From: Scatophagus argus
Lineage: Eukaryota > Chordata > Actinopteri > Scatophagidae
NCBI RefSeq assembly: GCF_020382885.2
Contig: NC_058513.1
Location: 12,053,641 to 12,117,640 of the forward strand
DNA: 64,000 nucleotides
Direction: 5' to 3'
The position numbers were made by a program, and so were the translations under genes. Below the pieces are notes generated by a model. The model searched no databases. It had not been told where the DNA came from and saw only the letters and a program-made list of their open reading frames with translations. Within the stretch, counting starts at the first letter, position 1; each line of letters starts with the position of its first letter. This document shows positions 12,201 to 15,200 of this stretch, piece by piece.

Positions 12201-15200
12201 CCATTGAGATGCCCAGGAGGCATTTGAATTATGCAGAGTAATATGTTTAAATATTAGATCTCTGTGCTGTCAGGTGCTCGTGACAAATCTGGATTTCCAT
12301 GATGATGACAAGAGGCAGAACCTGAACAGCACACTGCAGGAGCTGCTACGCATGAACATCGTGCCCATCATCAACACCAATGATGCTGTGGTGCCCCCAC
12401 CGGAGCCCAACAGCGACCTGCAGGGGGTAAATGTGGGTACAGATAGCATGGGGGGGGCGACGCTGGTAGCGGTGACGGTAGCGATGGCAGCAGGGGTGCT
12501 GAAGGAGTTGGTAGAAGCAGTGTTCATATATATATATATATAGTATAGTATAGACAGTCACTGTAGTATTGTCTATCATCCATACACACACACGTTGAAA
12601 GATGTCTGCCATCCTGCCTCACCTCATCAGCTCTGCCTTCGCTCATTAAGGCATGTGCATGCAGGGAGAGGATGGATGGCATGCTGGTCACTGGCGAGGA
12701 GGTGCTATTGGAAGGGGTCGGGACTAACTTCTGTAGGTAGACGCCTCCTCTATCTGTTTTCCTGCAGAAATAACTAACACATCTTTTTTTTTTTCTTAAA
12801 GATAATTCCACCTCACTCTCCTTTTCAGTCATTTTCTTGTCAACTCAGTTTTCGTGCTGTATATAATTATTCTGTAATCTTAATGAGCGACTCCAACAGT
12901 TTAACATTCAGAAATATTTGCACCAGCATGAAAAGATGGACGTCAGGGTCCAAAATTTTGCGCAGTACATAAGTGTTTAGGTTAAAAAAAAAAGCTCAGA
13001 CAGGTAAATGGCAGATGGCTGACTTTCTGCCACTGCTTCTCCATCTTTGGGAGCTTACATCTGCAATTTTCTGGTTCTGTAGGTGATCAGCATTAAGGAC
13101 AATGACAGTCTGGCGGCGCGGCTAGCTGTGGAGATGAAGGCTGATTTGCTCATCGCGTTGTCTGACGTGGAAGGTATGTGTGTTACTGCAGTCCACAGTC
13201 TGGGTCAGCTGTTAGATAACAACACCATCTGTCTGTGCTCTTCATTGGAAGGGGAAAAAAAAACCAGACAGGGTCAACGGGTAGTCATAAGAGAGAGACA
13301 AACACAGACCTTCTGCCTTCATGTTTGAAATTGATGCTGATGGGGTTGCCACAAGGCGCGCGCGTGTGTGTGTGCAGGTTGGGTCGATTTAGAAGGCTGG
13401 AAACAATAGTTTATCAAATGTACTCCATATATTTATTCATTTGCCAGTTAAAGACAGGTTTGAGGTCTGTGCGTCATGCTGCATAGTTTATTTTAGACCC
13501 ATGTATGAGCAAGTAAGTTGTGTAAGAACTGTCGATTTCTTAGGACTGTACAACAGCCCTCCTGGAACAGATGACGCTAAGCTCATTGACATCTTCTACC
13601 CTGGAGACCAGCAGTCCATCACCTACGGTACAAAGTCCAGAGTTGGACTTGGAGGCATGGAAGCCAAAGTATGTTAAAAGTCCTAAATCGTCCTGTTAAA
13701 AAAAAATTGTTTACGTTCAAGTTAAAAGCCTTATCTCAGTAGACCTTCAGCAGATAATCAAAGTGCAAAGCTTCTTGTACTATGGATTTTTTTTTTCTAC
13801 TTCCATTTGCAAACAACACTTAAAGAAGACGATTCCATCCTCGAGCCTGTTAGTAAGAGACATTAACGTTGCATTTTGGATTTTATAAAATGTATAATCT
13901 GATACTCTTCTACCAAAGTGATAGCAGCAGTGATTAACCTACAGTCAGTAATGGAAAGTAACTGAGTATATACAGACTATATTTACTTGAGTAATTTCAT
14001 CATATCCACTTTTTTCAGTGAGAAATATTGTGCTTGTACTCCACTACATTTTACTGACAGCTAGTTACTCCTATGAGTCAGATTTAAATACAAAACACAG
14101 AATCATCTTAAGAACATTTTGTCACATTTCAGGTATGTAGTTGTTAGCGGATTCAACAAAGAGAGATTTTGCCTCTGAGCTTCCCCACATAAGTGTTCAA
14201 GTTATCCAATATTTTGCCAAAAAAAAAAAAAAAAAAAAGTTTTCAAGTTTGTATGTTAGAATTTAGTTTTTTCTTCTTTTCTGTTCCTTTTCCCAGCCCC
14301 TTGTTTGGGAGACATCAGGAAGCACTACTTCATTGTGTGTAAAATAGTTCAAATGAAAACTTCTGACAGTCATTATTATCCTGTTTAAACATATGAAGCC
14401 AAATGTTCATGTTCATGTAGTCAAATTGTGTGTTTCTTTCTGCCTTTTTTTTTTTGGTAGGTCAAAGCTGCACTCTGGGCCCTGCAGGGCGGCACCTCTG
14501 TGGTCATTGCAAATGGCACCCACCCGAAAGTGACAGGCCATGTCATCACTGACATTGTGGAGGGCAAGAAGGTGGGAACATTCTTCTCTGAGATCAAACC
14601 TGCTGGTGAGTTCGCCTTCGTTAAGGAAGTGTTTTTTGTACTGCTGTTGTGTTAGATGACGTCGGTGTGTGTTTAGTGAAATGTGTGCTGTTCCTCCATC
14701 AGGCCCAACTGTGGAGCAACAGACAGAGATGGCACGTAACTGTGGAAGAACCCTGGCATCTCTACACCCAGACCAGGTGACACATTGTTTTGAATAAATA
14801 AAAACAAAAATGTCTCTTTTTGTTTTCAGTTAACATTATGAGATCGGTTAATATCTTTTGCTGTTTTAAAGGATTCCAGTTTATCTGTCAAAATATGTTA
14901 AGGTAGATTATAAAATACTTATAGGTTCGTCCTTAGCTTGCCATTGTCACATACAGAGAAACACTGACCCCTTGTGGGTAGATGTGTATTATGCTGATGC
15001 CGACTGTATTTGCTTGTCTGTGTTGTCAGAGGAGTGAGATCATCTGCCATCTAGCAGAGCTGTTGGTCGAAAGGAAGGAAGAGATTCTGGCTGCCAACAA
15101 GGTGGACATGGACCTGGCTGGAAATGCAGGTAATTTCTCCAAGGGGATTACTTAAGTGATTCTTCTTTTTCTTCTTCTTTCTTTTCGTCAGTTTGTCAGG

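Follow-up and report, generated by a model that had tools for sequence, protein, structure and literature searches.

The aldh18a1 gene analysed here carries, at the end of one of its coding exons, two splice donors lying six bases apart and both joining in frame to the same downstream exon, with a P5CS protein either lacking or containing a Val-Asn pair as the outcome. This arrangement is probably the orthologue of the splice switch known from mammalian ALDH18A1, and from the likeness of the two sequences the use of both isoforms and a corresponding effect of ornithine are predicted. The observation made in the initial annotation of this DNA was correct and the mechanism is already known in outline, while the depth of its conservation and its use in this animal appear plausible on the basis of the sequence.

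An intact P5CS gene with a tandem donor

P5CS is the enzyme making proline and ornithine. In the window (the whole stretch of DNA analysed, 64 kb in length), a splice model retrieved an intact aldh18a1 gene with a coding span at 9297–18977 on the plus strand, consisting of 17 coding exons separated by 16 introns, all of them (16/16) bounded by GT-AG. The spliced coding sequence of the long form, 2385 nt in length and with a single, terminal stop codon, encodes 794 residues, as compared with 792 residues for the short form. The long-form protein matched the P5CS model TIGR01092 over residues 56–785 with a score of 1199.3 bits (cut-off 796.75), and the short-form protein scored about equally (1200.8 bits). 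In addition, a kinase domain (AA_kinase, 63–321) is followed by a reductase domain (Aldedh, 354–621) in one intact frame, which is the domain order of P5CS. The possibility of a pseudogene was ruled out by the intact reading frame.

On the minus strand, upstream of aldh18a1, matches with the NNMT/PNMT/TEMT methyltransferase family were found at 833–1309 (profile positions 123–261) and 2129–2428 (profile positions 39–122), and these are probably exons of one methyltransferase gene. Downstream, also on the minus strand (22842–25917), two pairs of beta/gamma-crystallin domains (22842–23114 with 23413–23691, and 24869–25168 with 25555–25917) look like two tandem beta/gamma-crystallin-like genes. 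The methyltransferase and crystallin-like neighbours only suggest a vertebrate origin. In the region 27000–64000 no Pfam match was obtained for the 11 open frames tested among the 60 listed of at least 85 residues, and this part of the window may be largely intergenic or contain small exons only.

The exon bearing the tandem donor extends on the plus strand from 12274 to 12432 in the long form and ends at 12426 in the short form. It is the fifth coding exon, and its designation as exon 6, hence exon 7 for the following one, presumes a non-coding exon 1. The upstream donor, GTAAAT (nt 12427–12432), belongs to the short form and corresponds to the codons GTA AAT, coding for Val230 and Asn231 of the long form. 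The downstream donor, GTGGGT (nt 12433–12438), opens the long-form intron (12433–13082, with the acceptor AG at 13081–13082), the short-form intron starting at 12427. The next exon (13083–13173, followed by GTATGT) begins with V-I-S-I-K-D-N-D and is reached in frame from either exon end, 12426 or 12432, without or with Val230-Asn231, respectively. The two donors, their in-frame joins and the residue numbers had been claimed in the initial annotation: indeed, both donors can be read directly in the sequence, the spliced model remains intact whichever donor is joined to 13083, and the residue numbers 230–231 came out exactly as given. The layout is that of a mammalian-type switch, namely a 6-base donor pair at an exon end, in frame, with Val-Asn in between. 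On the 3' side of both donors, at positions 18–25 of the long-form intron, a run of eight G was also observed (nt 12450–12457, plus strand). Runs of G in the vicinity of weak donors are known to act as splicing enhancers, and this one could be a candidate splicing element.

The short/long tandem donor of mammalian ALDH18A1 (P5CS) was reportedly described by Hu et al. in 1999. The human donor is printed as GTAAATGT in PMC1779574, where a 6-nucleotide shift is reported to give rise to an ornithine-insensitive isoform, and the same octamer is present here at nt 12427–12434, the comparison being with the human octamer as printed. In mammals the short P5CS, found mainly in the gut, is described as inhibited by ornithine, and the long (native) form as broadly distributed and insensitive to it (PMC11275534, PMC11061531, PMC12523316), with one review speaking of an allosteric inhibition in the case of the short form (PMC11061531). 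The role in ornithine sensitivity that had been ascribed to the same insert in mammals is consistent with what these three sources, as well as PMC1779574, report.

Strength and possible conservation of the upstream donor

At six of the 16 aldh18a1 donors a further GT lies in frame no more than 18 bases away, which makes seven such sites, and at two of them, the donors of exons 6 and 7, the distance is exactly 6 bases; the octamer GTAAATGT occurs in seven copies in the 64-kb window when both strands are counted. Neither feature is therefore rare taken alone. In human coding introns, a transcript-supported 6-base tandem donor is reported in 142 out of 140,975 (PMC2279118). Donors were scored with an approximate, rounded matrix and by pairing with the U1 end. 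The 16 donors used by aldh18a1 ranged from 4.29 to 10.73 in the matrix, and the upstream donor at 12427 scored 5.84, with four of the 16 used donors lower. It is the only one among the seven in-frame alternative GTs scoring like a used donor, since the other six reached -3.44 to 3.86 in the matrix and only -2.3 to 0.2 kcal/mol in U1 pairing; their lower scores led us to reject a tandem GT arisen by chance as a full account. Exon 7 (13083–13173) also has an in-frame GT 6 bases past its donor (nt 13180), scoring -2.76 versus 9.46, and this second tandem serves as a natural control for that of exon 6.

When the two donors of exon 6 are compared with each other, the matrix places the downstream one (6.25) slightly above the upstream one (5.84), whereas U1 pairing favours the short-form donor over the long-form donor (-6.5 versus -4.2 kcal/mol). 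The U1 energies are a poor guide, since a third, frame-shifting GT at 12437 (GTACAG), pairing at -5.3 kcal/mol, would beat the long-form donor. This third GT, having a matrix score of 1.09 and shifting the frame, was discarded as a donor. Of the 668 GTs in the 9–19 kb interval, 5.4% equal or exceed the matrix score of the short-form donor and 4.3% that of the long-form donor. Neither donor plainly wins, and two middling donors are the look that would be expected of an alternative pair, not a proof of its use. RNA folding around both donors was ordinary (z -0.38), and a structure selecting between them was rejected on this ground; no Rfam family was matched at gathering score anywhere in the 64-kb window.

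It had also been claimed that the switch is kept by selection on six bases, which is an overstatement. Val-Asn, encoded by GTN AAY, dictates the G, T, A and A of the upstream donor, four bases out of six, thus leaving as informative the third (A) and the sixth (T), which are synonymous and shared with human. The second GT, for its part, is required as a donor by the long form in any case. Elsewhere in the gene GTA is found at 4 of 61 Val codons, AAT at 10 of 25 Asn codons, and by this codon use the GTA-AAT pair has, given Val-Asn, a chance of about 2.6%. This figure is weak evidence for selection on the donor, suggestive and no more.

The forced G, T, A and A, together with an AAT found in 10 of the 25 other Asn codons, would equally be seen if only the downstream donor were used here, GTAAAT being the mere codons of a conserved Val-Asn and the protein being always long. 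The slight preference of the matrix for the downstream site (6.25 versus 5.84) points the same way, and coding selection is a confounder at exonic tandem sites, which is why a catalogue of such sites in human, published in 2021, tested for selection at intronic minor sites only (PMC8055015); relative to the long form, the upstream donor is here an exonic one. We nevertheless regard an exclusive use of the downstream donor as unlikely, considering that GTA is rare among the other Val codons of the gene (4/61), that U1 pairing favours the upstream donor and that the same octamer is reported to be used both ways in human (PMC1779574).

As to the age of the switch, the presence of the site had been taken to imply that it predates the split of fish and mammals. 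The shared gene, Val-Asn pair, shift and octamer do support an old site, but an old switch is not thereby proven. A search with the degenerate pattern gave 0 matches in prokaryotic and viral contig collections, as expected, and this result is uninformative on vertebrates. No report of two P5CS isoforms in fish appeared in the titles and abstract openings of the matches listed; PMC8472046 and PMC1779574 each mention zebrafish, aldh18a1, alternative splicing and ornithine. According to PMC2878309, TassDB2 records for human 6-base donors whether they are conserved in zebrafish, and the fish site could thus already have an entry in this database.

Position of the Val-Asn insert in the kinase lid loop

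In the glutamate-kinase site, the insert lies in the stretch that separates the motifs NTND and DND. Aligned to the P5CS chain 7f5t_A, which we take to be the Drosophila enzyme, Val-Asn falls on residues 224–226, the placement of so short an insert in a variable loop being approximate. Residue 213 of this chain is Met, matching PMC8963878. There, cryo-EM of Drosophila P5CS is reported to leave a region II disordered over residues 214–228 or 211–232, and this region is proposed to act, above the glutamate pocket, as a closed loop trapping glutamate, or as an open loop with M213 touching the product. In the glutamate kinases of E. coli and yeast, the corresponding loop is described as important for the binding of glutamate and for sensitivity to proline feedback (PMC7658068). 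By its alignment to 7f5t_A and the extent of region II (PMC8963878), the insert belongs to the lid loop, the protein aligned being the putative Drosophila one.

For comparison of loop length only, ten prokaryotic glutamate kinases (nine titled clostridial and one Nanoarchaeota) were retrieved by a protein search yielding 39 candidate stretches. The stretch from NxND to xDNDx is 9 residues long in nine of these ten loci and 11 in the remaining one. Two solved glutamate 5-kinases likewise have 9 residues, two solved P5CS chains, presumably from plants (Arabidopsis), have 16 and the Drosophila chain has 23. In the gene analysed here it measures 18 residues in the short form and 20 in the long form, thus the active-site lid differs in length by two residues depending on the donor chosen.

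If the tandem donor is the orthologue of the mammalian switch, U1 would recognise either of the two middling donors six bases apart, the first leading to P5CS-short (792 residues) and the second to P5CS-long (794 residues) with Val230-Asn231, and both forms would be made in this animal. In line with the effect of the mammalian isoforms, the short form, with its lid of 18 residues, would let ornithine inhibit the kinase, and the long form, with a lid of 20, would be expected to escape this inhibition. A lid over the active site would not be needed for such an effect if the inhibition is allosteric, as it is called in one review (PMC11061531).

Alternatively, both junctions could be used as unregulated variation that is tolerated in a flexible loop, without any ornithine switch. 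Loop length does vary, being 9 or 11 residues in the ten prokaryotic loci, 16 in the two putative plant P5CS and 23 in the Drosophila chain. Moreover, the insert sits in a loop that is disordered in the Drosophila structures (PMC8963878), a moderate deficit of tandem donors is reported for ordered protein regions (PMC2279118) and arginine synthesis in teleosts is said to be likely limited (PMC10570457). This explanation has to face the finding that the same shift alters ornithine inhibition in mammals (PMC1779574, PMC11275534), as well as a protein that is otherwise a normal full-length P5CS by its match with TIGR01092, and we consider it quite improbable.

Physiological meaning and comparison with known systems

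In a review of their nutrition, teleosts are described as likely having limited arginine synthesis, with low P5CS activity, and as perhaps unable to form citrulline out of glutamate, glutamine or proline (PMC10570457). Low P5CS activity and little synthesis of citrulline and arginine weaken the rationale offered for the mammalian gut, which may not carry over to these animals. Were fish to use the switch, its origin would be unlikely to lie in what the gut arginine account describes for mammals, and were they not to use it, teleost physiology would fit with disuse; this physiology therefore cuts both ways.

A tentative view, possible though hardly the one to be expected, is that the ornithine switch is old and did not arise for the sake of arginine synthesis in the mammalian gut, and that ornithine originally shut off new P5C synthesis in some cells, others continuing to make proline. 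The source of ornithine would then be arginine breakdown, and the switch would be retained even by an animal whose intestine makes little citrulline or none. In the same old-switch view, lid length would act as a general feedback dial in glutamate kinases: short lids, such as those of E. coli, of the plant enzymes and of P5CS-short, would be inhibited by amino-acid products, and longer ones, such as that of P5CS-long, would not.

The site is of interest because a splice choice of two residues is reported to alter the answer of a central enzyme to a metabolite. Should fish use both forms, the switch would be a vertebrate trait, open to study in zebrafish or medaka, and the gut-arginine story would need revising. 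Should only the long form be made, the site would represent a clean case of coding constraint mimicking a conserved splice site.

With mammalian ALDH18A1, the site analysed here has in common the gene, the 6-base shift, the Val-Asn pair (PMC12523316) and the octamer GTAAATGT (PMC1779574), whereas the physiological setting, namely gut synthesis of citrulline and arginine, is probably different in teleosts (PMC10570457). Microbial glutamate 5-kinase possesses a homologous loop between NxND and DND, also tied to glutamate binding and amino-acid feedback (PMC7658068), but there the loop is fixed in sequence and unspliced, the effector is proline and the length is 9 to 11 residues in the prokaryotic enzymes and 9 in the two solved ones. 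A conserved 6-base tandem donor with a two-residue difference altering the response of the protein is likewise described for EDA-A1/EDA-A2 (PMC2878309, PMC11276485), an unrelated gene in which the choice switches the receptor preference of a TNF ligand and not the inhibition of an enzyme.
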